Below are positions 6,978 through 49,680 of a stretch of 64,000 bases of DNA, piece by piece. A program made the translations under genes and the position numbers. The notes below the pieces were generated by a model that made no database searches, was not told the origin of the DNA, and was given only the letters and a program-made list of their open reading frames with translations. Source of the stretch: Dentipellis sp. KUC8613 (taxonomy: Eukaryota; Basidiomycota; Agaricomycetes; Russulales; Hericiaceae); contig NSJX01000007.1 in the NCBI GenBank assembly GCA_002286715.1, forward strand, positions 60,253-124,252. The letters are read 5' to 3'. Position 1 is the stretch's first letter. The number at the start of each line of letters is the position of its first letter.

Positions 6978-7699
6978 CACCCCCCCCCCCTTTTTTTATC
7001 CTCTTCCCTCTCTCCCTCATATACCCTACGGACCCTATGCTCTCTCTCCCCCCCTTCCATCCCCCCCACTCCTTCTCACCATACTGCTAATCCTCTTACC
7101 TCTGGTGCACCCCGCCCGTATACCCTTCCCTCTTTTCTCTCCCCTTCTCCCCTTTCGTCATAACCATAAAATCATAATATCGCCTGCCCCCCGAATTCCT
7201 CAAGTTCTTTCCCTTTCTTTTAGATCACTTATCCTATCACACTCTGCCGCTCCTTTACCGTCGTAGCTAGCCCACCCTAACCCTTCCGGTCCTTACTGCT
7301 ATTAACCTATCCGACGTAGCCGAATATACTGTTGCTGCGCACCCTTAGCCATTGATCGAACTGCCGCGCCTCCCGCACTCGGCGGCGTACGCCGGCAAAC
7401 CACCCGATACCTCTGAGATTATGAGAAGCACCCTCAGACATGCTCAACCTTGTCGGCCCACATATACTGCTTGCGAGCAAGACAGGAAAGCCGCCAAGAG
7501 CCTTCTCCCCCGACGTCTCCCTGACGTCACCAACGGCGACCTATTTAGGTCAGGTGACTAGCTGTGCAGAGATGCTGAAGCTACCGAAATTGCCGGAATC
7601 CGTCGCCGAGGATTGATTCTGTCGATTTCCCAAGCAAGTCCCACCCGCTGGAGATCGGCCCCCATCTCCTGGTCTACTCATAGTCGTAAGTAGACACGA
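6978..7699 (+). other. LINE ORF1-ORF2 spacer
   Basis: Pyrimidine-rich, very C-rich, with stops in all frames. No gene is supported. ORF2 translation would need reinitiation, an internal entry or a separate start. Confidence 0.6.
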
Positions 7700-10600: not shown

Positions 10601-12838
10601 CAAGTTAACGGCATGCCAAAACACATCGAATCTGCGATCCTCACTGATATAAAACACTTTCTCTGGCCGAACCGTCGCTCCGCTGCAATCTCTCTCGACA
10701 CCCTCTACCTCCCTGTCAAGGACGGCGGGATAGGTCTCCTAGACCTCCAGGCATGCAACGAAGCGACTGACATTATCTGGTTGAAATCTTACCTTGATCT
10801 ATCCCCCTCTCGCCCCGCGTGGGCCTTCATTGCTGACATCCTCATAAACCGTCTAGCCCCCTCCTCTTTACACGATATCCCACGCATTAACGCCTTCCTT
10901 CAAAACTGGTCCCCAGTCCTTCAAGGACCGCGTACAAACGCTATCCCGCATACCCTTCTCACTATGCTTAAGGTGGCAAAAAAATATAACACAAACTTTG
11001 CTGTGCTTCGCCTTACCGATAATTTAAAACGTCAAATTCCCGCCTGGTGCCACCTTGGCTCCCTCACCTATCGACAAGATGACTGCTCGCGCTGCCTCCA
11101 ACATTCCCACAAAGTCCTAACCGTTGCTGATCTGACCAAAGTCGCTCGCAGACTCACGAACCTAGTCAACGGCCGCCCCCACCACAATATCAGTACATGT
11201 GCCTGCCAGGACTGCAATACAGATCGCCTCCTCCACTGTCGTAACCCGAACAAATGTGCAAAAAAAGCGCGTGATATCCTCGCCAACATTTTCCCTCTCC
11301 TCCGCCCCGGCGACCTCAGACCCTCAGACGGCCTCACCCACACCCCTACCCGTGAACAGCAAACCCAACATGCCCGATCAAATAACCAAAATATACTCTT
11401 CAACCCCTCCATTACATGTAAAACTGACCTTGCCGACTGTTTCCGTATCTTCACCACCCCTATCGCACTATTCCACCAACCTGCTTCCCGCCTTTCGTCC
11501 CCTCCGATCCAGGGCCGCCCCCGCCGCCATAAGACCGTCTATACGGACGGTTCATGCATCAACAATGGACGCCATAACGCACAATGCGGCAGCGGATTAT
11601 GGATAGAGGACCATGACCCACTAAACTGCTCATTTCGTGTCCCTGGCCCCTTTCAATCCAACCAAGTCGGCGAAATTGTCGCCGTCATCCTGGCCTTACA
11701 GAAAATCCCCCCTGATACCCCCCTCACCATCCATACCGACTCTAAATATGTTATTGACAGCCTGACACTCCACCTAACCACATGGGAAGATCGCGGGTGG
11801 ATAAACGTTTCAAATAGTATCTTCTTCCGCATGGCCGCCTTTCTACTACGCCGACGCTCAGCCACAACTGCCTTCTCCTGGGTCAAAGGTCACGCGGGCA
11901 CTATTGGTAATGAACGTGCTGACCAAAAAGCGAAAGAAGGTGCGGAGAAATCACACTTTGACACGCTCGATCTACGCATCCCTCCATCCTTTAACCTTCA
12001 AGGTGCGAAGCTCGCTACCATTACTCAATCCCTAGCATATCAAGGCATCCGAACCCGCAAACAAATCCCTCTTAAGGATTCAGTCTCTACCCGCCTCGAT
12101 GACAGCCGGAAAGCCCTTTGATCCCTTACCGGAGTTGCTGAATCTAACGCCTCTCTTTGGCTGAATTCCCACCGTCGCAACGTTAGCCGGAAAGCCAACC
12201 AGTTCCTCTATCGCGCACTACACGGCTCATTTAAACTAGGTGCTTCCTGGTCCCACATCCCGGGCTATGAAGCCCGTGCTATCTGCTCCTACTGCAACCA
12301 CCACGATGAGTCACTATCGCATATCCTTCTTGACTGCCATAACCACGTTGTCCAACATCTGTGGTTCCTAGCCCGCTCCTTATGGCCCCATGGCGACCAT
12401 ACGTGGCCCCACCTTGACCTCCACGCCGTCCTCGCCAGCAGCAGTTTTTTTCTCCCACCGGACATCCTTACCTCGCCTAACTTTGACCGTCAAATCCAAG
12501 ATTCACCAGTCTCCTCCCCTACTCCCGAATCCCGGGGTGCCTCACGTCTCCTTCGCATACTTATATCGGAAACAATCTACCTTATCTGGGTCATACGTTG
12601 TGAACACGCCATCCAAAAACGTTCCCACTCCCATGATGAACTCACCCGACGTTGGTACCAAGCCTTAAATGACCGCCTCAATGAAGACCGCTACCGGACC
12701 AACAAACTCCTACGAACTCCTGCAGCAACTTCGCAATTGCGACATACCTGGTCTGCCACCCTCCTTAACCCGCCACACCGTTGGTTTATCGAAAATGAGG
12801 TTTTAGTGGGTATGACGCCTCCACGGACCCCTACTTAA
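7700..12838 (+). pseudogene. LINE ORF2: endonuclease-reverse transcriptase-RNase H, one premature TGA
   Basis: The replication protein of the element. From ATG 7700: apurinic-type endonuclease (VATLNMKG near residue 85, LALQETHLD, LLGDFN, TDHH). Reverse transcriptase follows (NYRPITLLN, QAGFLPGRS, ALDQEKAYDKV, GVRQGDPLS, catalytic FADD near residue 832). RNase H lies at about residues 1275-1410 (VYTDGSC, Glu in QVGEIVAV, HTDSKYV, KGHAG..GNERAD). The frame stops at TGA 12119-12121 after 1473 residues but continues in the same frame for 238 more codons to TAA 12836. That extension carries a zf-RVT-like finger (CSYC..H....H....C) and a Trp-rich helical tail. One substitution, perhaps CGA to TGA, would explain the break. 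Everything else is open, so the copy was functional recently. Because the RNase H and RT precede the stop, a shortened protein could keep those activities, but retrotransposition is doubtful. Confidence 0.92.
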
Positions 12839-17576: not shown

Positions 17577-20164
17577 TGTGTCTCTGGGAAAAAGAAGGAG
17601 GCCAGGAGGCTGTTTAATTTCGTTAGGTTAGCGTTAATTTCTGTGAGATCATGATACGTGCCTTCAAAAAAATACAGTGAAGACTGGCGTTGATTTCAGG
17701 GACCGCGTTCATAAGGATATACAGCACGCGCCGTGAACCATCGCAATCCGAAATTGAAGGATATAAATTATGTGGTTGGAGAGTAGCCCGGACAGATGTG
17801 AGCCCTAAAAGTCAGACCCACTAGCTCCAGTGCTCGCACATCAAAGAACGGCCTTTCCTAGAAAAATACTGTGGCAAGGAAGCAAAGGGCTCACAGCGCT
17901 CGTTCATGCAATAACCAGCATCCCATGTCAAGTGGTTTCCGAGAGCAGCTCCTTGCGGCCGTTCACGCAATTTCCGTGACGTCTGAATTCATATCGCACA
18001 GGATATGTGGCGCAGTGAAACACGACAACCTAGTATCGCGAGCTGTTGAATCAAGGAGAAGCCGAATACACGTACGCACGAATATCAACGGCGGTCTTTT
18101 CGCTGGTTCCGTCCTCTGCCAGATTGGTACTGCAGCCAGTGAGTGGAGTTCGGAAACCGGAGAAAGGCCATCGGAGTCTGCAGAGACCCGTGAGTACGTT
18201 GGATCAACTTGGAGGAGCTGCGGCACTGCAATGAGCTGGGGCAGGCTCATCGAGGAAGAGCGGTGGACCAGCGGGAGAGCTCAAGTCCATCGGACCGAGA
18301 GCCGGCCGCTCAGCCGACGCGGTTAGTCAGCGGCGCATCGGCGTTCTGCGAGCTTGTTCCTGCTTGGTTCTGACTCCGTCACCACCGCACAGGTCGTCCC
18401 ACTAGTATCGAAGCTAGCTGTACAGATACGACTTGAAGCTTATGTTGCTTCACGGAAAGCAAGGTCAGTCATTGATAGATCACCCTTCCGGTCTAAAGGC
18501 GACATGTTTCATGCCTGAAGCATAACTGAGCTTTACTGATTTTGCAGGCTTTACGACCTCTTCTGCTTCCATTCAATTGGGAATGTACTGTCGGTATGTG
18601 CTCTTTAGCTTCTGGAAGACGCAAGCTCCGATCTAATATGGCAACGAAACAGACTTTAAGTTGCTGTGCGGAGCCGAGTGCCTGTTACAGGCCGGTGTTG
18701 TTGATGTCGTCGTGGAAGTAAGAAAGGTTCGGAAAGACCTTTAGGCCGCTTGATGCATTCGTACCTTGGAAGCCCGGGGTGATCATTCACTCTGTCAAGA
18801 CATTTCTAGTTCCGTTACGGAACCTCCCCGGCGCACGTAGAGGTAGGAGAAAGATTGCTTGGACAAAATGTATAGATCTAACTTCATCTTCAGCCGAGCT
18901 AGCGAAGTATGGAACGCGAGTCTCATGTATAGACCGTTCCTGACTTCCTGTGGCCTCGTCGCTTCCAAGAAAGGGGAAAGACTCGATCTTTTGAGCTACC
19001 CCAGACGTCGGCTGATCTGGAAGGCATGAATTTAGCGGATGCTCCCGCCAATTTACCTTCTCATCCCGACATGAGATTGACTGCTTGCAGCGATGTCAGG
19101 CAAGGTGTCATTTATCCTGCAGTTGCATGTGTACGTGCCATCATAGTCATTTTCCTAACTCTTCGTGGGTAGTACGTTCCTCCCGATATCGTCCACTCTT
19201 GCAAAGCCACTTCCCTTGGAAAATTTTGTGCGTCAGACGTAGTGCACAACCGGAAGCGCCGAGAGCTGACCTCCTTCTGATTCCTACTCTCAGCTCTCCA
19301 ATTGAAGTCCGCAGCACAGTTCAAGAAATTGTGCCTCAGGTTTGGTCCGGTGACAGAAATATTGGCAACGCAAGAGATCCCCGTGATCCGCTGCAGACGC
19401 ATGCGCAATGAAAGACTGTTGCATTATTACCTCTGCAACCTTGATGGGGATTTAGGAAATCATGCCAAGTTGCGCATCGTGCGGAACGCATCCCGTGGTG
19501 CCGAACGTATCAGATTGCGCGGTCGTGGGAAAGCCCCCATATGAGATCCGCGGGTGGTAATAGGCCATTTGGGCAGCCATGCGCAGACGGCCGGTTGGCG
19601 GCCACCAGGAAGGTTCCTTCTCGTCGAAGCAGACAGCACGAGACTCGCTCCTTCTGATTCTTCGAGATCGTGAAGTGTGGTCGATATCAATCTCAGCCTC
19701 TTATCCATTCAACGTGATACACCATTCCAGGCCTCACGAGACACGTACGGGTCGCCGCCGGGGTCGCCGCACCATGCAGGTACGAGGGACGACGCCGGCA
19801 CATGTCCTGGGCCGCTCTATCCATGCCTGCGCCCAGCGCACTCTCGCCCCGATGCAGCAGCTAGTGGCGAGCCTCGATCGTTTTACCATGGGACAGGTGG
19901 CAAATTAGTTCGGGCGTCACATAGCCTGTGGTGCAATCGGCGGGTTGGCGCTCGCAGAACAGGTATGTTGTCATCCTTCTTCCTCCGCCGAAGCATGACC
20001 TGTCCAGCTCGCACCTCGAGCTTGGCTTCCCTGCTCCTCCCGAATCATATGACATTGTGTATATAAGGAAGCAGTCCACTTGGCTGCCGCTCACTCGCTA
20101 ACTTTGCGACCGGACGCAGTCTGCGGTTTTTCCGTGCTCGCTCCACACTTCGCTTCTCTAGATC
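17577..20164. other. Long intergenic region, nothing assigned
   Basis: About 2.6 kb with no gene I can support. Around 18390-18740 there are two or three short GT-AG-bounded open stretches on the + strand (for example LYDLFCFHSIGNVLS) that could be exons of a degraded gene, but no family is recognisable. The right end is the aquaglyceroporin promoter. Confidence 0.4.
20060..20067 (+). promoter_or_regulatory. TATA box of the aquaglyceroporin gene
   Basis: TATATAAG about 105 bp upstream of the ATG at 20165. It is placed well for a transcription start near 20090-20100. Confidence 0.6.
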
Positions 20165-21716
20165 ATGTCTTACCCACCGGATTCCAAGGCTCTCCATCGC
20201 CATAGCGGTTCTGCTAGCAACAGCTCAACGAAAAAGGGCGAAAACATGCACATTGAGGATACCGAGTCGCCCGCAGAATTCGAAGCTAAACATGAATACT
20301 ATACCCGTTATCCTAATAGGTGGTCAAGAATTAGGTACGTGCAGCTTGCTATTCGAAATTTTCAGAAGCCGTGTCTCACTCCTGCTCGCTTACAGAGAAT
20401 TGCTTCGTGAACCCGCAGCAGAGATGCTTGGGACGATGATTCTTATCCTTTTCGGAAACGGTGTAGATTGCCAGGTTGTTCTGAGTGCGAATACGGGTGT
20501 CTCTCCCACACCGAAGGGTGACTACCTCTCCTTGAACTTCGGCTGGGCAGTCGGTGAGTGTCTCTGCCGTCATGAATATCTTGCTTTGCGACTAACGGAC
20601 GCATCGCAGGTGCTGCCTGTGGTGTCTGGGTATCCGGTGGTGTTACCGGTGGTCACATCAACCCTGTCGTAAGTTTATATGCTACGCACACTAATATCCC
20701 GCTCACATCCTTCACTTATCTTAGGTTACACTCTGCCTCGCCGTCTTTAGAGACTTCCCGTGGTGGAAAGTTCCCATCTACATCATGGCCCAAATAATCG
20801 GCGCCTGGATCGGTGCCATGCTCACCTACGCGAATTACTTCCACGCAATCAACATCGTCGAGAACGGCGAGCGCACCGTGCCCGGAACCGCCTCGCTCTT
20901 CGCGACTTATTCCGTGAGCACCCAACGCGCGCATCTCAGACGCGAACAACGTTCCTGACCGTCCGCTTTTGTCACATAGCTCGCATACATGCCCGCCGCG
21001 AATAGTTTCTTCGATGAGGTAAGGCTTCCTCAGCCGCGCAACGCCCGTCCGCTCCAGCTTCGTGATGCTAACGCGTGGCACGCAGTTCATCGGCGCGCTC
21101 GCCCTGATTCTGGTCGTCTTCGCGGTCACAGACAGGCGGAACGGGCCTCCGCCTCCTGGCATGGTTCCGCTCGTCATCTTCATCCTCATTTTGGGCATCG
21201 GCGCTGCCTTTGGAATGCAGACAGGTAACGTGGCGCCCTCTTACAGACGTATCGCGTTCCACTTCTCACATTGCATTCAATTCGTGCTCGCCAGGCTATG
21301 CCGTAAACCCCGCTCGTGACCTTGGCCCGCGGATTATGACCGCGATGATGGGATATGGCAAGGAAGGTTCGGAAAACTCCCTCGACGCATGCGATCTGTG
21401 GTGCTGATTTTTGGTCGGTTCTGGTTAGTGTTTACGTTCCGCAGGCAGTACTGGCTGTGGTGCCCTATTCTTGGCTCGGTTGCCGGGGGACTGGTGGGCG
21501 CGTTCGTGTACGACGCGCTTATCTTCACCGGCGACGAGAGCATCCTCAACCGACCGTACGTCTTTCACCCTTCTCGATAATCGCGAGGGGGAGATACTGA
21601 CACTGCGTTTCCTATCTAGAAATGCCGCTGCGCGCAAGCACCATGCGCAGGCGAGGCATGAGGAGCGGCAGAAGCCGCCCGCAGGCAACTACGAGCCTGA
21701 AAACGACATCGTATAA
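20165..21716 (+). CDS. Aquaglyceroporin (MIP family channel)
   Basis: Membrane channel for glycerol and other small solutes, with six membrane spans and two half-helices. About nine exons from MSYPPDSKALHRHS to a C-terminus ending EPENDIV. Visible segments: MLGTMILILFGNGVDCQVVL, NFGWAVGAACGVWVSGG, GGHINPVVTLCLAVF (loop B, with NPV in place of NPA), VPIYIMAQIIGAWIGAML, FIGALALILVVFAVTD, VPLVIFILILGIGAAFG, GYAVNPARDLGPR (loop E, canonical NPA followed by R-D) and FTFRRQYWLWCPILGS. The Asp after NPAR and the GlpF-type VFTFR..YW block mark the glycerol-permeable subgroup. One intron near 21366-21427 uses a GTTCGG donor but restores the frame. The hydrophilic N-terminus is about 60 residues. Confidence 0.93.
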
Positions 21717-22525
21717 TGCACATACAGCATATAACCCGTATGATCCACGCTCGCGGATAATTGATGTACATACAGTGCGTTGCGTGCGCGCACAGCTAGG
21801 GTTTCTCGTGGGTATAGTCTACTTTTTTGTTCCACGCCTGTACGGATACCGTCCGTTGTAACGATACGTACGACTGCAATGTCAGGTCTTGCTGCACAGT
21901 CTCCTGTCGCTCTGAGTGCGATGCCAAGGTCTTTTCTTATGATCGCCGGGACCACCGAGCACGGGTGGGATCTAGCGTGAAGGGGCGCAATGGGGCGAGT
22001 CACGAGGACCCACACCCCTGGCCATGGAGAGTAGTAGAGTTTAATCGGCCCAGCACGGTGGACTGGGCATAGTCTACGCACGTACGTCAGCCCTGGGAGA
22101 ACGTTTGAACGGCAAGGGCGGGGGGAGTGAGGACGATAGAGTTTTCCACCAGAGTCCAAGGAGATATGGTCATTCGCGTGGTGATAGCGCACCGTGACCA
22201 AGTCAGCAGGCCTGAGCATATTTTTCTGGAATGTAAGCGGCCAGGACGTAAACGTTTAGTGCTCAGGGTCTGAGAAAATTAGGCTTTATGGACCAGAACG
22301 GAATCACAAGGTTGATGGTTTTGCGGATGGGCTGCGGAAGACCATGGAGTGCAAGGGGCACGCCCGTCGCCCGCCTCGTACTTACCCGCTTACCCACTCT
22401 ACGAATAGGTGCAGGTCAAAAAGCGATAAAATTATAGCATTATTAAATGTACATCCGTGCGACATTAAAGCCACGTCTGAGACGATGCGATAGCCTGCCA
22501 GTGGTATCTAAATCATAAGAGGAGA
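21717..22525. other. Intergenic between convergent genes
   Basis: About 800 bp shared by the 3' ends of the aquaglyceroporin and the WLM gene. No supported gene. Confidence 0.5.
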
Positions 22526-38044: not shown

Positions 38045-38768
38045 TCAATACTCTCCCGGGATCGTGCCACCACGTCTCTTCCTCTCCTCGTAATTCTCCT
38101 CCAGGTAATCCCTGATCTGCGTCCAATCCCGACACCTGTGCACGATGTTGTTGCCCGTCGCCCCGTGGTCGATCTCGCCCTTTGCATTCGTGACCGGCAT
38201 CGACGTCTCGAGAGTGGTGTCCCCCGCGCAAAGGAGCATCTCCTTGAGGTACGTGAGGCAGTGGTTGACATGGTGCTCGACGCCTGTTCCGTTTCCAGGG
38301 AACTGCAGCGTGCCCGCTTTCGCAGTCACGTAGCCGTAGCGAAGGGCATCCAGGCAATGCAGCTGGTGGAACATCGACAGCACGTACATCTCCTGGTTTG
38401 GCCCGAGCGCTACCCAGCCGTTGCTTCTGGGGAAGAGTGACGCCCAGTCGTCGTCTGCGTACGGTCCGTAGACCTGGTCGTCTAGCCATTCCGCGTTCAT
38501 AGCTGCCTCGCCGATGTGCACCGGCAGGCGATTGGGATGGTCATCGACGGTGTATGCTAACGAGAGCGCATTTCTCAGTAACTAATCAAGCCGGAGGTAA
38601 ATGAAATATGTGTAATCGCGCACCGTATTTGATCATTTCAGGCTTGAGAACAGGACGAAGCGCACGGATACTGCGCAGCTTCATCCCAATATCGACGGTC
38701 TGGAACCCAGCAAGAAGCAGCAGGCCGACCAACGCCCACCTCCATTGCGTCTTGGTAGGGTGCTCCAT
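38045..38768 (-). CDS. UstYa-family (DUF3328) oxidase
   Basis: UstYa-type proteins are copper-dependent oxidases that cyclise peptides in fungal RiPP pathways (ustiloxin, asperipin) and modify other metabolites. Two exons (38768-38624, 38556-38045) give 218 residues. The N-terminus has a single membrane anchor (WALVGLLLLAGFQTVDIG). The lumenal domain carries both family signatures: MFHQLHCLDALRYG and, about 25 residues later, HHVNHCLTYLKEMLLC, that is HxxHC...HxxHC. It ends RRGGTIPGEY. An alternative start at 38858 adds 30 residues in frame. It is divergent from the gene at 39262 and lies 1.5-3.5 kb from three secreted-peptide genes, which fits a peptide-modifying role, but that is inference. 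Confidence 0.9.
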
Positions 38769-39261
38769 GTCAAGGACGAGGAGGTGTGGTACGTTCAACC
38801 TGGGCAGTACCCAATACATAACACGACCGCGCACCCAATTTGATCTTTCCTGCAACATGGCGGCCAGGCGGCTAGTGGAGCCTCTGATCAGCCATGTCTT
38901 CTCGGAATTCTCAGGGACCCGGAGAAGTCACTCACTCGTGATCAAGCACGATAGAACCTGCGAAGAGCGCTCCGTGCCCTATGACACCACTGCGGGTGCA
39001 GGGAGCTCAGTTGGCTGCTATCGGTACGCCGGCATACACTGTCCAGAGAAGTGCCAGGCTGCTTCGTGGCTTCCACGCGTCTTTCTGATTCACCCCCATC
39101 ACCATAGATCACCGCGCAGGCCGGTTAGATTAGCAGCGGGACTAAAGCCGTCGGTTCCGACTGGACCCCACGTTCTGCGTGGCTTGACGTACAGTCTAGT
39201 TATCATATTTCCGTCAGCCTTGGATCGAGCGCCCTTGGGTTCATTGGCAACTCTCACCGTC
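38769..39261. other. Probable bidirectional promoter region
   Basis: About 490 bp between two divergent starts (38768 minus, 39262 plus). The two genes could be co-regulated from it. No clear TATA box stood out. Confidence 0.4.
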
Positions 39262-39675
39262 ATGGCCAACTACGAGCAACTGCCCAACGGCGACGAGCAC
39301 CTGTCCGAAGAGCATGGGCTTGTCAGCGAAAAGTATGAGGGCCGACCCTCCTTCGCCTCCGCTGCAAGCTCGCTGAAGCCATTCGTGCTTGCGTTGCTGC
39401 TGCTGAACATCATCTTGGCCGGCACGAACGTGTGGGCTACCAATTTGCTCTCCTCGCATGTGGCGAAGGTCGCACCCATTGCGGACATCGCGCAGCTTCC
39501 GGTGCCCGACCAATACACTGGGCTAAGCTCATCGTCGCGTCAGAAAAGTATGTTGTCGCTTGCATTGTTGACCGGCGACCGTGCTCACAATATTTGCGTT
39601 CAAGTGGTGCATACGAACGATAGCACGTATATCCGCAAGAGGGATCCTGCGGACTTCATGCGAAACCCGCTCTGA
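39262..39675 (+). CDS. Small single-pass membrane protein, possibly a truncated UstYa-like relative
   Basis: Starts MANYEQLPNGDEHLSEEHG and has one membrane segment (PFVLALLLLNIILAGTNVW) at about residues 40-58, then LPVPDQYTGLSSSS. Removing a likely intron (39548-39604, GTATGT...CAAG, 57 nt) keeps the frame and gives about 118 residues ending FMRNPL; retention also stays open, giving 137. The layout, short cytoplasmic head, anchor, then a LPxPDQYxGL linker, is like the N-terminus of anchored UstYa-like proteins, but no HxxHC motif follows. It may be a 3'-truncated paralogue, a gene with an exon I missed, or an unrelated small protein. It is divergent from the UstYa gene. Confidence 0.5.
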   Translation: MANYEQLPNGDEHLSEEHGLVSEKYEGRPSFASAASSLKPFVLALLLLNIILAGTNVWATNLLSSHVAKVAPIADIAQLPVPDQYTGLSSSSRQKSMLSLALLTGDRAHNICVQVVHTNDSTYIRKRDPADFMRNPL

Positions 39676-40222
39676 AGGACATTCAACCTTGTAAGTACGA
39701 CTCTTTCCCTGACTGACATGCCTCGCACTAACAGGACGTGGAGCGCAGTCAGATAGAAGTCTCATGTCGTGTAGGATAGATGGGAGTCGTATCGGAGCTG
39801 TGCTGCGAGGCTCGGCGGTGTTTGTCTCCACGTTCCACGGGCAATTTCCTCGTAATAGCAGGCTGTCTGGCAGTGAAACGAATCCTATAGTCGGTGATGG
39901 TCATTCCAGCGTCTCGAGCTCTCACCAAACATGATTTTGACTGCGTCTTTACCATGTTCAACCCTTCCGTACTTCTTTAATGCTCTGCTGCCTCCCGAAT
40001 ATCAGCGCTTCAGCGCTCGCATCGAGCCGGCGTCACAGCTCCTGTCAGCGCACAGAAGTGAAGTTCACGCTATGTCGGAAGAGATTCTCTCTTCGAGTTG
40101 ACAGGGACTGGCATTGGCTCAACAGAAGGGCGTAAGTCGCGCAACCTGGCCCAAGCTGTGAGCATAAAACGGCCACCCTGGCGGGACGGTGTGTAGACCT
40201 CGTACCTTGACCAACGCCTCCG
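39676..40222. other. Intergenic, promoter of peptide gene 1
   Basis: About 550 bp. A CATAAAAC TATA-like sequence at 40163-40170 precedes the first peptide gene by about 55 bp. No other gene. Confidence 0.45.
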
Positions 40223-40439
40223 ATGAACGTGCAGTCTGTCTTCTCTCTTTTCTTCCTCGCGGCCTTCGCTATCGCGGCACCCGTGGGCGGTCAGTGTAAG
40301 TCCCTCCCCTTCCTTGAGACACAATAGGGATGATGATGGAGTCGTGAACCGTGAAGCGGCTGTAGCCAGAGAGGTACCCAAACCTGGGATGTTTGTTGAA
40401 TTCACTGGTGTCACTCAGGACACCACTACATTTCAGTAA
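40223..40439 (+). CDS. Small secreted peptide 1 of the GVTQ family
   Basis: Two exons (40223-40295, 40342-40439; intron of 46 nt, phase 1) encode 56 residues. A signal peptide (MNVQSVFSLFFLAAFAIAA) is followed by PVGGQ, a short spacer, an Arg, and the conserved C-terminal block VPKPGMFVEFTGVTQDT, ending TTFQ. Exon 2 is 98 nt, exactly the length of exon 2 in the second peptide gene. An earlier AG at 40326 would give an early stop, so the acceptor at 40341 is preferred. I do not recognise the family. It is the first of three tandem paralogues and is too short for ordinary gene finders. Confidence 0.75.
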
Positions 40440-40994
40440 ATCGAATCAATAACAGAGGTGCAGTCAGTAGTGATATTGCTTTCTGTCGAACGGACGTCCT
40501 AATGGGTTCTTCGATGGGATAGTTGGGCATCATAGAAAAGCGATTATCGGACTAGCGATTGAGACGGATATACCTACCTGACACCGAATGAACATTGCAT
40601 GACAGCCATATGTGTCGCGTATCCTGACTGAAGCCAACCCCCCGCCTCTGGGGGTAAACAGTACGGTCGGGGGCATTGCAGATGTACGCCCGTCCAACCA
40701 GGCCGTGCGGCGCAATGCTGCACCCGGGGGGCAGGCGTTTCTGAACTAACAAAGGTTACGTGCCTGCATATGATCGGGTATGAACGCCGTATCAGAGACT
40801 CACTATGGACGATATCGCACCCTTTGAACGCTTTATTTTAAGCGTGGCGCCCGCGATACGTTCAAGCACCTTGAGCAGGCACTGGTGTCGCTGTCCATGT
40901 TGAGGATTGACGCCATATTCAAAGCGCAGCATCAATGACCTTACGATAAGAGAGATAACTGACACGAGAAATGGAATCTGAGTACAGATATGCA

Positions 40995-41002
40995 TATATA
41001 AG
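40995..41002 (+). promoter_or_regulatory. TATA box of peptide gene 2
   Basis: TATATAAG 55 bp before the transcribed ATG at 41057. It is followed at 41015-41033 by a block shared with the promoter of peptide gene 3. Confidence 0.6.
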
Positions 41003-41014
41003 TCGGCGGCGTTG

Positions 41015-41033
41015 ATGGGAAAGAGTCTGTAGG
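41015..41033 (+). promoter_or_regulatory. Shared promoter/5'UTR block of peptide genes 2 and 3 (copy 1)
   Basis: ATGGGAAAGAGTCTGTAGG, matching 42034-42052 at 17 of 19 positions. It lies 20-30 bp after the TATA box in both genes. It could be a conserved start region or just a remnant of gene duplication. Confidence 0.5.
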
Positions 41034-41056
41034 TTTCGCACCTTCGAGTCTCAACC

Positions 41057-41279
41057 ATGCGTCACATTCTCTCGCTTCTGGTCTTCGCAGTCCTCGCCGT
41101 CGCGATACCCTTGAATGACCAACGTTAGCTTATCCCTTTCCTGTCCGGATCGCTATGCTGACCGTCTCATTGACACTACAGCTGCCGCGCGCAATGCAGA
41201 TGCTGTGAGGGAGTTGCCCGAGCCCGGATACTTTATCGAAAGTTCTGGAGTTACTCAGGATACCACCGATTTCCAGTAA
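41057..41279 (+). CDS. Small secreted peptide 2 of the GVTQ family
   Basis: Two exons (41057-41123, 41182-41279; intron GTTAGC...ACAG, 58 nt, phase 1) encode 54 residues. Signal peptide MRHILSLLVFAVLAVA, then IPLNDQ, a spacer with AARNADAVR, and the conserved block LPEPGYFIESSGVTQDT ending TDFQ. The gene structure, intron phase and exon 2 length match peptide gene 1, and the signal region plus PLND matches peptide gene 3, so the three are paralogues. The core holds a Tyr that the others lack, of interest if a UstYa oxidase acts on it. Confidence 0.8.
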
Positions 41280-42007
41280 GAAGCATCTTCGCAAGCGCAG
41301 GTGGGGGCGTGAGTCACGACATGTATTGCTTCCAGCGGTAGACCCTGATGTTTTCTCTAGGGTGGCGCGGGGTGACTATTGGCTATTGCATCCAGCCATA
41401 TGCATCTTATCATCCGTCTGGGCAGAAACATATTGCGGTACGCGTATACCTGCATTGTAGAAGAAGGTTGATGCGATGGCACCGCCGCACACTGTAGAGT
41501 ACACTGCACGTTGCAAATGCACCTCAGACTGGCGGAGTATAACGTATGACCCCCGGCATTCGAATTTGAGGGCGGCTCCTGAGGGCGGCCATGTGTCATG
41601 CATGTCAGGGAGCAGACTTTTGCAAGGACGCCTTCGTGGCGTGTACAACGGCCGGCGTCGATAGCACCTAGATTCCGATTAGGCTTTGAGAATGGTTGGA
41701 CGTCGGTGCCGAACGATACTTGCCAACGAAAGGGTTTAGCCGTGCTAAATCTGTGAACTGATGGTGGAAACGCATCAGAAAGCGCATGGAAGCCACGATA
41801 GGCGCGCCCTCACTGAGCGGTTAGCGCTGAACGGCTGCTGTGGTATGATCACGAAGATCTAGCTGGCTGTCGTCAAGTGTGGTGGAGCGAAAACTGAAAT
41901 TATTCACACCTGACCTCATTTCATCATCCGCGTGAGTGCGCTAGCTTCTGCTTCTCCGTGTGTGTTTTCGGCTGAACGTGCGCTGAACGAACTACCACGA
42001 GTGCCGG

Positions 42008-42013
42008 TATAAG
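42008..42013 (+). promoter_or_regulatory. TATA box of peptide gene 3
   Basis: TATAAG in GGTATAAGTATA, 90 bp before the ATG at 42098. Confidence 0.5.
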
Positions 42014-42033
42014 TATATTAGTCTCGCCCGGCC

Positions 42034-42052
42034 ATGGGGAAGGGTCTGTAGG
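42034..42052 (+). promoter_or_regulatory. Shared promoter/5'UTR block of peptide genes 2 and 3 (copy 2)
   Basis: ATGGGGAAGGGTCTGTAGG, the counterpart of 41015-41033, again shortly after the TATA box. Confidence 0.5.
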
Positions 42053-42097
42053 CATTCATACCTGAATCACCCCTTCATCGCCAGTCCTCACGGTAAA

Positions 42098-42461
42098 ATG
42101 CGCTCCGCCATCCTATCTGCCGTATTCCTCGCAGCATTTGCTGTCGCCGTGCCTTTGAACGACAAAGGTATCTGCTTCCTTTGTACTTCTCTCTGACCCC
42201 TCGCTGACTGTTATCACAGTCCGGGCAGTTCCAATTCCTGGAGCGTTCGTTGAAGGTTCTGGCGTCACGCAGGATACGAAAGACTTCGCCTCCGACGTCG
42301 CAGGCCGGGCGATTCCGGTCCCCGGAGCATTCGTTGAAGGATTCGGGGTCACGCAAAACACCAAAGATTTCTCTTCCAGCAATGAAGCGAGGGCGATTCC
42401 AGTGCCAGGGGCATTTGTAGAGGGGTTCGGCGTCACACAGAACACGGAGGAATGGCAGTGA
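42098..42461 (+). CDS. Small secreted multi-repeat peptide precursor 3 of the GVTQ family
   Basis: Two exons (42098-42167, 42220-42461; intron GTATCT...CACAG, 52 nt, phase 1) encode 103 residues. Signal peptide MRSAILSAVFLAAFAVAV, then PLNDKV, then three tandem units each beginning Arg-Ala-(Val/Ile)-Pro and containing PGAFVEG(S/F)GVTQ(D/N)T. The first two units are 28 residues (84 nt) long; the last is 23 residues and ends EEWQ. Linkers between units are acidic and Ser/Ala-rich (ASDVAG, SSSNEA). A secreted precursor with repeated cores is the layout of KEX2-processed repeat peptides and dikaritin precursors, but the expected Lys-Arg sites are absent; only a single Arg precedes each unit. Function unknown. 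Confidence 0.85.
42222..42458 (+). repeat. Three in-frame tandem repeats (84-nt period) in peptide gene 3
   Basis: Units begin at 42222, 42306 and 42390, each with an Arg codon. The first two are 84 nt and the third 69 nt, cut short by the stop. Codon third positions differ between units while the peptide is kept, which suggests selection on the encoded sequence. Confidence 0.85.
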
Positions 42462-42709
42462 GATGCGAGTCAGCGTAGGCGGAAGGTCTCTGTACGAGTT
42501 TGTTAGTCCAGTAGATGCCAATGGACGCCTGGGGATGACATCACGGATTTGAGCGTTCTTTGATGACAAGCGCCAGAGCGCATGATTAGCAGATGATCGC
42601 TAACCAAGCAAGATAGAAGCGGATCGTACTGAGACGGTATAAGAAGATGCAGCTGGAGTGGATAACCCACCGCTCGCCCTGTTATCGTATTTGACCCGCA
42701 GGCGTAAAG

Positions 42710-43863
42710 ATGCCCTCGAGCGCTGAAGCTGATGCTAACTATGTCCTTCCGGATAATGATCAAGAGAAGGCTCGGTGAGTCTGACGTCCTGGTGCCACGA
42801 TAGACTAACCCACCTAGCATGAGAAAGTCTGGCGTCCCAGCATTTTATGATGAAGAAGGTGATGGGGAGACCCTCACCTATTCCAGATGGCGTAGACATG
42901 GGCAACATCTCCAACGTTCTTGATATTGCGGCCGGCACCTGCGTATGGACGCTCGAAGTTGCGAACCTTCCGGAGGTCAAACCACGAATCCATCTTCCTG
43001 GAGCAGAATCGAACCAGAAACAGATCAACCTGTATGCATGCGATATCAGCACGGCTAAGTTCCCGTCCAAAGAGTCCACGGACAGGCTGGGAATCACGAC
43101 TTTCGAGCAAGACGTGACGAAGCCGTTTCCTGCAGACATGTTAGGCAAATTCGACTTGATACACATGAGTCTGTTGGTCTACGCGTTGACGGAGCAGGGA
43201 TGGAAGAAGGCGCTAGATAATTGCCGAGACTTGCTCAGTCAGTTTATCATCTAGATTCGGGACTTAGTTAACCTGCATCGACGTTCCAGAGCCCGGTGGC
43301 ATTCTGTTCATGACGGAAAGCGACGCGATCTTCTTCACGGATGAAGCTCCTGCGCCTGACGTAGATGCTTCCGGTCACGACTTCGAAGCCAACATGTCTG
43401 GCCCGACCTGGAGACACAAAGCAAACTCAGTATACACAGGAGGTTCATTGAGGAATAAGTTCATACCGGAGTGAGTAGATCGTTGCTCAAAACGAGGAGC
43501 GTACTGATGAAAGATGACAGCTTATCGTTTCGCCTTCCCTCGATGCTTGAATCATCGGACTTCACGCTTCTTTCCAAGAAGAGAGGCAAGGGAACCTTCG
43601 GGAAGCTTTGCACGATCTACAAAGGACTCGATGGGACCTCGTTGGACGACGAAGCTGATCTGTCACTTGCGAACTTTGACCAGGTCATCGATGTTTTGGT
43701 AGGAGTATATTTCAAGAATGGTACTCTGGAGGCGCCGAAAGGGGTCAAGATCAATAGTGCAGAGGAGAGCAGACAATTGGTGGAAGAGATCAAACAAGGA
43801 GTACGCCAGGCTGGCGCATACGTCGTCATAACGGACATCTTAGCTAAGAAGCATGTGCATTGA
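42710..43863 (+). CDS. SAM-dependent methyltransferase
   Basis: Class I methyltransferase of the type common in basidiomycete secondary metabolism. Starts MPSSAEADANYVLPDNDQEK; an intron ending at the AG of CATGAGAAAG joins to RLASQHFMMKKVMG, the usual RLxxQH block. The SAM motif I is VLDIAAGTCVWTLEVA (Cys replacing the usual Gly of GTG), followed by YACDIST, FEQDVTKPFP, FDLIHMSLLVYALT and EPGGILFMTESDA. The C-terminal part contains SLRNKFIPE and ends DILAKKHVH. About four exons and 330 residues. It is in the same orientation as the peptide genes and starts 250 bp after the third. A tailoring role on the peptides is inference. The Gly to Cys change in motif I could weaken cofactor binding. 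Confidence 0.85.
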
Positions 43864-44357
43864 TGATACGTCTGAATCGAATTGTACACATGTACACTCT
43901 TGTCGAATTGAGTTGAAATAGAAAATGACTATGAGCAGATGATAGAGCGTAAGACGATATATACTCACCTTCAAGCAGTGTCGCAAAGCTTGACGCAACC
44001 TGGGCTTGAGAGAAGACAAAGATACGGCAGGATATAACTTAGAGATTCACAGAGCATGTACATGGCTGAAAAGAACGTTGGCATTGGAAAATTCACTGCA
44101 ATCAGTCGGCTATGAGCGCGGCGCTGTGAGAGCTAGCTGCTACGCTAGCCGCAAGGCAGCGGAGGAGACTGGGAGCAGAGCCACCGTCGGACTCGGAAGG
44201 CGCGGCAAACTTTCTCAAGATCTAATCTTTCTAACTTGATTAGATCGCGTTGCACTCCCTCGACTCAGCGCTGACTTCAGTCACCGGCAGTGACTCGAAA
44301 ATCCTGTGGTCGACTGGGCTGAACGATACAACTACGTCAATACACGGTTTGAAGACC
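43864..44357. other. Intergenic, promoter of SEN54
   Basis: About 490 bp. An in-frame ATG at 44250 would extend SEN54 by 36 residues. No other gene. Confidence 0.45.
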
Positions 44358-46081
44358 ATGGACGATTCACTGGAAGAGCCGACAGCGACAGACGTGCTCC
44401 CGAGCCGTCCTGACAATGTAGAAGAGGACGAGCAATCGTCCGGAGACGAGGATGGGGGGTTGGACTGGACAAAACTTCCGTATGCATCTTCACAGCCATA
44501 TTACACTACTGGATACCATTTGAACCCACCAGAACAGATCTTCGTCCGTTCACAAACCTGTGATCCCGAAGCGAGGGGAGAAGGATTTTGAGCCAGCCCC
44601 AGGCGGGGGTTCTGGGCTTCAGACGCACAACCTTGACCGAGCAAGAACAGCCATGTTCAATGCTCTAGGAGCGACACGTGCTATTTCGAGGTACGCAATG
44701 TGAATATAGCCTTGATCCCCATCTTTACTTGGCCCTCCACCCATCGCAGCAAGAGCGTCAGCTACGCCATCTGGCACCCGTCATTATCCCGTGCTCATGT
44801 TACCCTCGCTCGTGGAACGCAATTCAATGCTTTGGGTCACTCTGTTGCGCGAACCTCAAGTGCATTGCCCGAGAGCAAAGCGCGGAAGCGGCTGGAATTG
44901 CTACCCGAGGAAGCCCTGTACCTTGTCGAGAAAGGATCGGTGGTTTGCTGGAAAGAAATAGAAGGTCAAGACTTCTCGGATGTTGAGAAGGAGGACGCGC
45001 TCCAAGGGGCCCCGATGAGCGTACAACAGGCGTTTGTGGAGATGATCGGAAAGGAAGACTTGACTCTCGAACGGTACCAGGTCCGTCTATTTCCTTGAAA
45101 CCATCTGGAGTGTCTCTGACTATATACTGCCCAGGTCTTCTCGTATCTCAAACGTCTGGGATACAACATCATGCGTGCGCATCCTCCTTCATCCTCCTAT
45201 CCAATACCTTCGCCGTACCCTGTCACAACAACACCATCCCATCATCCTTCCTTCCTCGAGCGACTATTCTCGCCCATCTCTCGCATCCTCCAAAAATTCC
45301 TGCGCCCGGTATTTGACTGGTGGCGGCCTCTAACTCATCGTCGCTGGCTACACCATAACATGGATCATTGTGCGTGCTTCCCGGCCTCGTGTACATATAA
45401 TCCCATAATTGACACGGATATTCTCTCTATAGTCTCCATCTTCAAATCTCTGCGCTTCCTGTCCTCAGGCCACTCGGTGCCTCTCAAATCGTCATCCCCC
45501 GCCCTTTCGGAACCCTCTTCTCCGTACAAAGTATTCTACCACCTCTACAAGCCAAATACTCCCTTCAAAAAGACCTCACCTCCACCCCCTGACTTTTCCG
45601 TCGTCGTTGTAAAGTGAGGCATACCATCTCCCGAACTATCAAGGACAAAATACTGACTGCATTCCTCCAAAGCGCGCGCACTACCCCCATGCCAACGCTA
45701 GCCGAATTCGCGGATCTCTTCGGCGGCCTTCCGACGGTTCCTCCCCCGCTCCCTCGCCAACGGAATCGCCTGCAGAACAAAAGCCCAGCACCACCGGCGA
45801 CGCCGCAAATCCAAGAGGGTGCTGCGTCCGGCAAACCCGAGCCTGCAGCACCATCACAATCCACCTGGCTGGCTCGTCTTGCCGCATATGTCCCTTTCCT
45901 GCGTTCCGCCGAAACCTCGCAAACTCCTCCTGCGAAGAACAAACCAGGCGAGCGCAGGGTCAATCCATTCATGGCTCTCCGACAGGGAAACAAAATCGTC
46001 ATTATTGCGGCAGTAGACGCAGGCGTGGCGAGCTTCTTCCGATTCGGAGAAGGCAGCTTCGAGGAATGGCCCATGGCGTAA
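44358..46081 (+). CDS. SEN54: tRNA-splicing endonuclease subunit Sen54
   Basis: Structural subunit of the nuclear endonuclease that removes introns from pre-tRNA. Starts MDDSLEEPTATDVLPSRP; the first intron (GTATGC...AACAG) joins LP to SSSVHKPVIPKRGEKDFEP, typical for the family. Then GGGSGLQTHNLDRARTAMF, ALPESKARKRLELLPEEALYL, VEKGSVVCW, MSVQQAFVEMI, LERYQ joined to VFSYLKRLGYNIMR, and WRPLTHRRW. The C-terminal domain has YKVFYHLYKPNTPFKK, PPDFSVVVVN, TTPMPTLAEFADLFG and ends FFRFGEGSFEEWPMA. Domain order and the characteristic Sen54 N-terminus make this secure. About 430 residues. An alternative start at 44250 is in frame. Confidence 0.92.
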
Positions 46082-46454
46082 CAGCACAGGTCTTCGTATG
46101 CTTCGCGAAGGTCATCCTGCATATCAGGTCGAGGGACGCGAGCATCCATGCTCACCTCACCGATACAAAGCAATGCCTTACCAGCAAAGTACCTCAGTAA
46201 GTACGTTGCTCGCAGAGGTATTATGATTGCTATCTGTCTAAGATAGAGGGTATCCTTGTGCAAAGTCCATTGAAAATGCGATTCTTCGGAATGAAATGAC
46301 GGTGGGGGCTTGCGCCAGCACGGCGCGCAGCGGAAAAGACTCGGATAGCATATAAATATAGCGATGCGAGACAATGGATAGCAAAATGCGTTGCGAAAAA
46401 GCCCAAGCCCAAAAATAACCATGATCAACTAAATGTGAAATGAAGCGAGATAGA
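46082..46454. other. Intergenic between convergent genes
   Basis: About 370 bp of 3' flanks of SEN54 and the aspartic protease. No gene. Confidence 0.5.
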
Positions 46455-48701
46455 TCAGAACAAGGTCCAGATGAGAGACGAGAGGAGAGCGGTGGAGAGG
46501 ACGGCGACGGTGCTGAGGTGCGCGGAGGGCTGGGCGCCGTTCTTGCTACGATCGGAGGAGCTTGTAGAAGACGGCGCGGACGGCGCTGCGGAGGCAGATG
46601 AAGAGACGGCAGTGGGGACTGCCAGCGTCGAGGGTGCAACAGAAATTTCGGACGCAGAGCCGGTGGGAGCAATCTGCGACGTAGCTGTCGAGAAGTTCTA
46701 TGGTCAGACTTGTGAGCCTGCACGAGAGAACGTTGATCTCACTTTCAAAGTTTCCGTTGTTCTCCTTTGCGTCGTCAATAGCTTGATCGAGCTCTGCGAC
46801 AGCATCCGTGGGCACAGTAGACAGGAAACCGATACGAGGCGGGTCGACGGAGGGATGCGTCAGATTGCCGTAGTAGAACGCCACAAGGGTCCTATCACAG
46901 AGGATGGTTTCAATGCCATTCAATAGGATCAGAAAGAACAGGCACGCACGATTTCATGAACGGATCACCCAGACTCCAGCTGAACAGGGCACCAGCACTC
47001 GGAGGATCCGTGTTGACGATGTTGTTGGCAATGCACGTCGTGGCGTCGTTCGTCTGGTTCTGGGACACGAAGTCGCGCGGGTCGACCGGGAACATCTTTC
47101 CGCCGATCTGGAACGTCAGGTTGTGCGGGGTGCCGCAAGGGAAGGTCGGGGCGGCGTTGCGGTTGGCGGCGAACGCGGGCGAGACAGACCTCAGGATCGA
47201 ACTCACAACATCAGACGGTCCACGGAGAATGCTGTTTCCCTGAGGAGCGAAGGGCAATCAGTAACAGAACCGCATCTGTCTGGCTGACAAGCCGGGTATT
47301 GCCAGAACTCACGGTATCGATCAAGGCGGAAAGACCAGGGTTCGAGATGCCTTGAGGCGCAACTGTCGAGTCCGCGAGCTTCTGTCCGTCCAGGTAGACC
47401 GCATCGAGCAGGACTTCCCAGCGACTGGAATCGATTGATTATCAGTTCGACACTTCCGTAACATAAGGAACTTACAGTGGGTAGACCTGGAATTTACGTC
47501 GAAGGATGATCATGTGAGGCAGTGTCAATGAGTGTGTGCGAACACAACGTACCTCGTTCGGTGCAAAGGAAGGCGGATTCAAGCCTCCAAGTTTAGGGGT
47601 GTACAACCTGACGGGGACCCATGTGAGGGACGAGTTGTCAACACCGTCGGGAAGCTTCCCGACGGTAAGGCTGCCACTTTGTCCTCCGATGTCGATGGTG
47701 TCACGCTGGAGCGCAATCTGGAGGCAACCTCGGTCACTGAAGATACCTATCTTATGACAACTGTATGCCTACCGTGAACATGGGTTGCTCAAGCGCGCCG
47801 GACGCAGCAAGACGAGACAGCAGAGGTCCATCTTGAGTAGTCCCCAAAACGAAATCGTCCGTCTTTGTTGGGCTGTTAAACTGGCAAGATACGATCAGAT
47901 GCGGATGCAGAAGATCGAAAACAACGAACTACCTTGCTGTTAATAACGGTAGCTTGTACTTGACTGCACCTGCATAAGCCGAATGTCTAAGCCACAACAA
48001 TAAGGAACACGGACCTTGAGCTAGGGAACCCCAGACCAAAGATGCCGTTTGCACCGTTCATGACGCTCGTGTTGTTCGTATCGGAAATCGCAGCAAACGG
48101 CTGCTGGGGCATAGACAGACCAGCAATGCTGGCCGTGTCCTGCGCAACGGGACCCTTGGCATGGGTGCCCGTGAGGGAGTCTCCGTACTGTAATGCAACG
48201 GATCCTCCTGCAGGCTTGATCTGCGACGACGGGTACGCAGGCATACGGCTGGTCTTGCATACATTGGTCTTGCATGCGTCGGACACGACCCAGAGGTCAC
48301 TCGAGCCCGTGTCTAGAGAAACGTGATCGGTGTGCTACCTCCATGCGAAATTAACAAAAGGTAATACCGAGGTTAACGGCGGTGTCTGTGTCCCCAATGG
48401 TAATGGGCACAGTGTAGAACCTGCGCCGTAACGATGGGTAAGGGTCAGTAGAAAGTGCATGCGCCAGTAAGACTCACAAGTCTGCAGTGTCCCCCAGCCC
48501 AACCGACCCGCTGTACGTGCCTCGCCTCTCGTGCGCAGCCCCGGCTCCTCCGCGCTTCCGTGAGTAAATTGGTACAGTAAAATTCCTCGTCTCTCCAGCG
48601 TCCCTTCTCGAAAGTCGCGTTCGTGAAAGACCGTGCGGCAGGGCAAGAGCGAGACTCGGGAGCAGGACCAAAAAGTGAATGTAGAACGTGAAGGAATGCA
48701 T
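46455..48701 (-). CDS. Aspartic protease (pepsin family A1), GPI-anchored
   Basis: Secreted acid endopeptidase tethered at the cell surface. Read from ATG 48701: signal peptide MHSFTFYIHFLVLLPSLALA, a basic propeptide (SRTRLSRRDAG, YSRKRGG), then TYSGSVGLGD, FYTVPITIGDT. The first catalytic site DTGSSDLWV is assembled across an intron. Then GDSLTGTHAKGPVAQDT, IFGLGFPSS, and the second site ALIDTGNSILRG, FPCGTPHNLTFQIGG. After GFLSTVPTDAVAELDQAI a Ser/Ala/Thr-rich stalk leads to SKNGAQPSAHLS and a hydrophobic tail (TVAVLSTALLSSLIWTLF), the usual GPI signal. About eleven exons, roughly 480 residues. Looks intact; both catalytic aspartates are present. Confidence 0.92.
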
Positions 48702-49680
48702 TGTAGTCTATACGGCAAGCGTCCGGCGCAGAGTCAACTTCGGGGAAAGTCAGGAAAAACCCAAAAGAGAGGAAAGCAAAAAATGGCCGGGGAGGTCGTC
48801 GACGCCCTCAAGAAAGAAGAAGAAGAAATGGAACGAGGACAGAGACGACGGGCTATATATCGCTCACCGCGATCCGGGTTGCCCTGCACTGCATGCCCGC
48901 GCTAGTGCCTCAAACGAGTCGGCATCACAACGCTCCCTTAGATGGGATCGCGTCCTCCCTTTCTTATTGGCCACAACAAACCCTGCCGCAACAACCCGTA
49001 GCCAATAAGGTCTTCAAACAGAACAGAGTGTGAAACCCATCGACGCGAACATACATAGAAGTCAACTCGACCGAAACTGCCAGCTGTTGAATAGACCAGT
49101 TTGTGTAAATTGCAGCTGTCAACGTCAAGAGGCTCTGCGCACAAACAAATGCAGCCTGTGTTGTAAGTAACCACGTCTTCAGGGCGCCCGAACCCCAAAT
49201 GATCTACTGTTGCTATATTTATGGGACGTGCCTATTCGTATCAGAAGAGTTGACCGAGGTCGCCTTGAAGGTGATCTCCAACAAGCCAAAAGCCAACACG
49301 GTCCATCTGGACTATATATGATCTAAACAAAAAATCTCGAAACACTCTACACTCGCTCTAATCTACTCAACCTGACTACAGTATACAAGTCCGATCGAGT
49401 AACATACTGGAGAGTGTTATCCACAGCCTTCCTGAAGGCATGTCTCCGTAACGATCTGTATCAGCCTAAATAAATAAAAGCGCTCAAAAGCGAGCGTGAA
49501 CAAGATAAGGAAGAGTAGGCAATATCTAAACGATATAGTGAATGTGTGTAGACGCACTCTGAAGGCGTACGGAAAGCATAACGTGAATTATACGAGTACA
49601 GTCGGGATACATACGTCCCGGATTGACTTCTCTGAACCTTGCCCTTTGAGATCATCTTGAATTTCAATGTGTATATCGGC
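48702..49680. other. Intergenic region
   Basis: About 980 bp upstream of the aspartic protease and downstream of the RING gene. Short ORFs only. Confidence 0.45.

Follow-up and report, generated by a model that had tools for sequence, protein, structure and literature searches.

The stretch described here, positions 38045-43863 of a 64,000-base window of the wood-inhabiting basidiomycete Dentipellis sp. KUC8613 (contig NSJX01000007.1; G000:C139:60253-124252), holds a run of genes in which a family of small peptide precursors lies between a UstYa-family oxidase and a class I S-adenosylmethionine (SAM)-dependent methyltransferase. The window is the whole stretch of DNA that was analysed, and it belongs to an assembly of 34.1 Mb in 171 contigs. 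Six intact spliced gene models fit the interval, every intron being bounded by GT..AG and 50-70 bases long, with no internal stops. They comprise the UstYa oxidase, a divergent small protein with one predicted helix, three peptide genes with five core copies, and the methyltransferase:

38045-38768, minus strand: UstYa-family (PF11807/DUF3328) oxidase of 218 residues; exons 38624-38768 and 38045-38556; N-terminal helix and the motifs HQLHC and HVNHC.
39262-39675, plus strand: small predicted protein of 118 residues, divergently transcribed; exons 39262-39547 and 39605-39675; one hydrophobic segment from about residue 41; RKR at 106-108.
40223-40439, plus strand: peptide precursor 1, 48 residues, one core (REVPKPGMFVEFTGVTQDTTTFQ); exons 40223-40295 and 40366-40439.
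41057-41279, plus strand: peptide precursor 2, 54 residues, one core (RELPEPGYFIESSGVTQDTTDFQ); exons 41057-41123 and 41182-41279; D. fragilis orthologue in EVG20_g8285.
42098-42461, plus strand: peptide precursor 3, 103 residues, three cores 28 residues apart with Arg before each; exons 42098-42167 and 42220-42461; orthologue in EVG20_g8285.
42222-42455, plus strand: core copies of precursor 3, 66 bases each, starting at 42222, 42306, and 42390; synonymous sites diverged, amino acids largely kept.
42710-43863, plus strand: class I SAM-dependent methyltransferase, 332 residues, four exons; start 248 bases past the stop of precursor 3.

A first-pass annotation had proposed these six genes, their order, and the paralogy of the peptides, and all of them can be read as spliced models; it had also suggested that the two enzymes act on the peptides, as in ribosomally synthesized and post-translationally modified peptides (RiPPs). 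The three peptide genes are nested tightly between the UstYa and small-protein pair on one side and the methyltransferase on the other, with no further gene recognised between them. For precursor 1, the intron is modelled at 70 bases, the more usual size; an in-frame alternative of 36 bases, seen by eye, would add a pro-region that likewise ends in Arg.

Judged by its substitution pattern, the peptide family is real and old. The five cores of the window share an Arg followed directly by x-[VLI]-P-x-P-G-x-F-[VI]-E-x-x-G-V-T-Q-[DN]-T-x-x-[FW], with 11 of 24 aligned columns invariant, and a genome search with peptide 2 recovers peptide 1 (E 1e-5) and peptide 3 (E 1.2e-4), in agreement with the three paralogous tiny peptides first proposed. 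One further copy was found in the genome, on contig C102, at E 0.078 with peptide 3 as the query and not among the matches listed with peptide 2 or peptide 1; whole-genome searches score the best candidates only, so that such counts are lower bounds. The six cores of this genome are REVPKPGMFVEFTGVTQDTTTF, RELPEPGYFIESSGVTQDTTDF, RAVPIPGAFVEGSGVTQDTKDF, RAIPVPGAFVEGFGVTQNTKDF, and RAIPVPGAFVEGFGVTQNTEEW in the window and RAAPLLAPFVEGWGITQDTTPF on C102. The proportion of nonsynonymous differences (pN, 0.08-0.37) is below that of synonymous differences (pS, 0.60-0.93) in 15 of 15 pairwise comparisons of these six, synonymous sites being near saturation. Within precursor 3, even the adjacent repeats 2 and 3 have diverged at 14 of 16.2 synonymous sites, against 3 of 22 residues. 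Near-saturated pS together with lower pN shows that the core copies are old and that the peptide sequence itself has been selected. The same pattern refutes in practice the explanation that the small open reading frames are chance frames or decaying copies, whose probability is negligible: precursors 1-3 are apparently unannotated among the deposited KUC8613 proteins (two peptide searches of the protein collection), as this explanation would have it, but amino acids kept at synonymous saturation, a common two-exon layout, orthologues in D. fragilis, and an annotated paralogue, DENSPDRAFT_883717, all speak against it.

The precursors are well supported as sources of predicted secreted, strongly conserved peptides of about 21 residues. 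Their N-termini reach a hydropathy maximum of 2.7-3.2 over 12 residues from positions 4-6 and carry AxA-like sites, secretion thus being read from a hydropathy window and by eye only. Arg stands directly before six of six cores in this genome and four of four in EVG20_g8285 of D. fragilis, and the residue ahead of it is Ala, Val, Gly, or Ser; cleavage of the predicted peptides after this single Arg may be inferred. The spacers of precursor 3, ASDVAG and SSSNEA, are unlike each other and so single out the stretch from the Arg through the last aromatic residue as the functional piece. For precursor 3, nothing in Pfam passes its cut-off, the top row (PDE8, 17.4 bits where 25 are needed) being put down to chance, and no description of the family was found in open-licence papers, mostly on UstYa, KEX2-processed repeat proteins (KEPs), or Dentipellis, including by the string GVTQDT.

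The oxidase model is identical in every letter to a deposited 218-residue protein of the strain, DENSPDRAFT_835274 (P0003). It belongs to the UstYa family by its match to Pfam PF11807 (E 1.1e-21, 78.1 bits, cut-off 25) and by both HxxHC motifs, HQLHC at residues 112-116 and HVNHC at 144-148, and it adjoins precursor 1 (starts at 38768 and 40223, respectively), which bears out what had been claimed for this gene. Across an alignment of the protein and 27 others, the first 28 of 36 protein-database matches, the residues of both motifs vary little or not at all. An AlphaFold2 model (mean pLDDT 76, pTM 0.60) places the motifs on successive helices, 109-128 and 141-159, behind an N-terminal helix at 6-41. 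No solved structure resembles the protein by sequence (PDB search, E up to 1). In a fold search with the model, the best of 99 rows with E up to 10 had an E of 0.81, and none reached 0.001; NCBIfam held no match.

The methyltransferase was first modelled with a second intron of 29 bases, and this was replaced by a model with three introns of 50-53 bases. The earlier model, with a different start region, lies above the Pfam cut-offs for Methyltransf_12, _25, _23, and _11; with these matches and the present four-exon model, the class I SAM methyltransferase of the first reading holds. With the present model, a genome search returned only its own exons among the matches listed, the PDB gave no match (sequence search, E up to 0.001), and NCBIfam gave two rows, both far under cut-off.

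Relatives of the window oxidase occur in Artomyces pyxidatus (61%), Pholiota conissans (57%), and Peniophora (55%), and its identity to other UstYa stretches read in its own genome is at most 40%, which points to a history of its own. UstYa-family proteins also act outside ribosomal-peptide pathways. Two adjacent units could, thus, have been taken for one, the UstYa and its small partner belonging to a pathway for a small molecule or a non-ribosomal product, and the peptides standing apart, whether or not the methyltransferase goes with them; the finding of the peptide family only in Dentipellis would also fit. This arrangement is nevertheless improbable, as no synthetase, terpene, or polyketide gene was recognised near the locus (Pfam on only ten window open reading frames outside the cluster, the remainder read by eye) and the nearest AMP-binding stretch ends at 15.2-15.7 kb in the window, more than 22 kb from the cluster. 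The housekeeping gene SEN54, at 44.3 kb, closes the run on its downstream side, and upstream lies a protein stretch without a Pfam match. Elsewhere in the window, at 7694-12118, there is a long retrotransposon-type open reading frame with endonuclease, reverse transcriptase, and RNase H domains.

Of the small anchored protein in the first-pass annotation, the divergent reading frame with a single strongly hydrophobic segment can be read, and its standing as a real gene could not be confirmed, with no Pfam match and only itself listed in a genome search. A truncated UstYa is not supported either, the best tblastn match over 13 stretches having an E of 0.13. Its end, ..STYIRKRDPADFMRNPL in exon 39605-39675, carries a dibasic site (RKR, 106-108), which none of the other small products of the cluster has, and a cut there would leave a ten-residue tail, DPADFMRNPL.

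The genome contains at least 16 UstYa exon matches in at least 11 loci. By simple arithmetic on 11 loci, a random gene would lie within about 1.5 kb of a UstYa in about 0.1 percent of cases, a figure that ignores that the case had been picked by the earlier annotation. Repeat precursors were sought, at a threshold of 9 of 12, in 211,001 bases, of which the window gives 64,000 and fetched flanks, with 1.5 kb entering twice, give 147,001: C102:122752-142751, C161:350500-365499, C126:121500-131499, C111:196500-206499, C89:362000-371999, C86:15500-31000, C99:176000-197999, C103:150700-165699, C105:249300-259299, and C143:1-8000 and 39000-48999. Relaxing this to 7 of 12 brought in many rows; most looked, by eye, like frames rich in arginine or serine, and rows below 9 were dropped. 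Two places were positive, each also on the reverse strand, namely precursor 3 and a canonical KEP on contig C86:

G000:C86:25234-25777: canonical KEP; signal-like start MRFFSSFFSLATVIVASHAG; five repeats of type RHDGPHDDLDGFLGPKEDSALSSL in another frame, with RR or KR between them.

The change of frame is presumably an intron; the repeats contain no Tyr, and Tandem Repeats Finder gives a period of 78 and 4.1 copies. A UstYa pair lies close to this KEP (matches at 18902-19174 and 21472-21741, the nearer gene about 3.5 kb away), so that at least one other UstYa locus of the genome carries a repeat precursor. As a candidate for a ribosomal peptide linked to UstYa, this KEP comes closer to the textbook than the window locus does. 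Both are secreted repeat precursors near UstYa with few or no Tyr in their repeats; however, the C86 locus has five dibasic-separated repeats, two UstYa genes, and an unrelated core, whereas the window locus has single-Arg sites, one UstYa, three precursor genes, and a core conserved between genes. Thus, repeat precursors were found in the flanks read at 2 of 11 UstYa loci, a proportion that describes UstYa flank, which made up most of the scanned DNA, and does not gauge their frequency away from UstYa. When regular expressions for GVTQ-type cores were run over the window, the flanks on C102, and the ten first-fetched stretches of 8-10 kb, matches were confined to the five window sites and C102; flanks fetched later entered the repeat scan alone. 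Viral contig scans with the UstYa and peptide alignments gave 41 and 15 pattern stretches, respectively, none of them confirmed.

The peptide family has been seen only in Dentipellis. In the protein collection, the sole match of precursor 3 at E up to 1 was a D. fragilis protein, EVG20_g8285 (P0001), whose 160 residues comprise precursor 2 and then precursor 3, with an internal second signal-like sequence; two adjacent peptide genes were probably joined in error during gene prediction. Of its repeats, the third is identical to that of the window and the first two differ (GITQET, GVMQDT), and Phe stands in place of the Tyr of core 2. With a six-sequence peptide alignment, the C102 paralogue was the sole match at E up to 10. 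These searches need shared five-letter words and annotated genes and did not return KUC8613's own precursors 1-3, so that absence outside Dentipellis is weak evidence. The C102 copy is as follows:

G000:C102:132610-132844: fourth paralogue, DENSPDRAFT_883717 (P0002); LLAPF replaces xPGxF; the deposited model starts further upstream.

The 16 UstYa exon matches of the genome all lie on contigs other than C102, and the first-pass annotation's expectation that paralogues elsewhere would sit beside UstYa failed in the one case available. In the 20 kb read around this paralogue, a TPR-like nucleoporin was recognised upstream (25.8 bits, just below the cut-off of 27). Downstream come, at about 3 kb, a P450 with one piece that passes the Pfam cut-off and, at about 9 kb, an AMP-binding stretch that scores 28.5 bits where 29.9 are required. 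Moreover, no D. fragilis orthologue was present among the 36 UstYa matches in the protein database, where one of 120-381 residues would be expected to rank first after the query itself, though the peptides are present in that species; a missed or fused gene model could account for this. Both observations would be expected if the peptides were an unmodified, linear, secreted family of genus-level signals or effectors, processed at Arg, with the UstYa and the methyltransferase acting on something else. Strong conservation of the core, as in signalling peptides, points the same way, as does the description of KEP-derived peptides from four agaricomycetes as linear and minimally modified in Vogt et al. 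2022 (PMC9769878). This explanation has a probability somewhat below even; against it stand the close packing of the three peptide genes, flanked by the UstYa and small-protein pair and by the methyltransferase, and the KEP beside a UstYa pair in the same genome.

The best explanation overall, which we hold tentatively and short of an even chance, is that the locus encodes a conserved secreted peptide family that is cleaved at Arg and modified by the UstYa and the methyltransferase. The signal would be removed from the precursor and a Golgi or secreted protease would cut after the single Arg, freeing peptides such as AIPVPGAFVEGFGVTQNTEEWQ. With less certainty, the membrane-anchored UstYa might then oxidise the core in the secretory pathway, where the invariant Phe and its Val or Ile neighbour are the obvious target, and the methyltransferase might add a methyl group to give a dikaritin-like modified peptide. 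The tight contiguity of the genes, the complete UstYa motifs, the low chance that a random gene would lie so near a UstYa, and the textbook KEP beside the C86 UstYa pair count in favour of such modification, which is plausible and unproven, at rather less than one chance in two.

Several points besides the C102 and D. fragilis cases weigh against modification. Artomyces, Pholiota, and Peniophora have UstYa relatives at 55-61%, yet no peptide was detected in those genera; 9 of 11 UstYa loci lack a repeat precursor in the flanks read; no promoter words are common to the peptide and enzyme genes, in a weak test in which almost none were expected by chance; and the core is conserved rather than variable. 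The prior for KEP-UstYa linkage is also low, since only 103 of 1680 Basidiomycota KEPs (6.1%) had a DUF3328 gene within 15 genes in Umemura 2020 (PMC7329392), in which DUF3328 genes accompany 22% of 7878 KEPs overall. The translated models of precursors 1-3 contain no dibasic pair, and Tyr occurs in one of the five window cores (Phe at one position in all five), so that both objections raised in the first-pass annotation, the lack of KEX2 sites and the scarcity of Tyr, were correct. They carry less weight than it assumed because products apparently cleaved after a single Arg were obtained from agaricomycete KEPs expressed in Pichia, as reported in PMC9769878, and because the C86 KEP beside a UstYa pair lacks Tyr. 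The proposal of a RiPP system stands for its parts, order, and paralogy, and a modified peptide is still a live candidate, whereas the C102 paralogue and the D. fragilis peptides, without a detected UstYa partner, do not follow it. A constrained rather than variable core favours a fixed target, be it a signal or one particular binding partner, more than it does a library of diversifying toxins. That the locus represents a basidiomycete ribosomal peptide class, in which UstYa and a methyltransferase modify a Tyr-poor, constrained core released at monobasic Arg and conserved like a hormone rather than variable like a toxin, is less likely than not.

To our knowledge, the substrates of basidiomycete UstYa enzymes are largely unknown. 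UstYa genes are many in basidiomycete genomes, as in that of KUC8613 and in Pleurotus, for which one study lists 16 UstYa-like genes, six of them developmentally expressed (PMC8893723). The locus offers one named UstYa, five candidate cores, and a matched control in the C86 KEP and UstYa pair, all in one genome, so that a direct test is at hand of whether basidiomycete UstYa enzymes act on peptides that lack both Tyr and dibasic sites.

Among known systems, the basidiomycete CAAX-type pheromones end in Cys-aliphatic-aliphatic-X, and the precursors here end in TTFQ, TDFQ, and EEWQ (PGDE in the C102 copy). In borosins, the precursor is fused to its own N-methyltransferase, and here precursors and methyltransferase are separate genes. 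The peptides resemble ascomycete alpha-type pheromone precursors and the Basidiomycota KEPs with alpha-pheromone-like features described in PMC6339444, being short and secreted with a constrained core repeated in one precursor; however, they have no dibasic site and, by eye, no run of XA or XP dipeptides before the core. With the KEPs of Agaricomycetes they share a signal-like N-terminus and short cores, and some KEP products are apparently cut after a single Arg in Pichia (PMC9769878), but the definition of KEPs demands tandem repeats separated by KR, RR, or KK, and here a single Arg takes that place, with one core each in precursors 1 and 2 and three in precursor 3. The dikaritins (ustiloxin, phomopsin, asperipin-2a) are matched in the predicted secreted precursor, the repeated cores of precursor 3, and a UstYa/DUF3328 oxidase side by side with a SAM methyltransferase. 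Dikaritin cross-linking involves the side chain of an aromatic residue, usually Tyr. Unlike the dikaritins, the window locus has no dibasic Kex2 sites bounding its repeated cores, cores mostly without Tyr and conserved between genes, a single UstYa gene, and one paralogue away from UstYa, and it is known here from sequence alone. Since the dibasic sites were looked for and are absent, filing under dikaritins or KEPs is not justified, and the locus is a dikaritin-like variant rather than a dikaritin.

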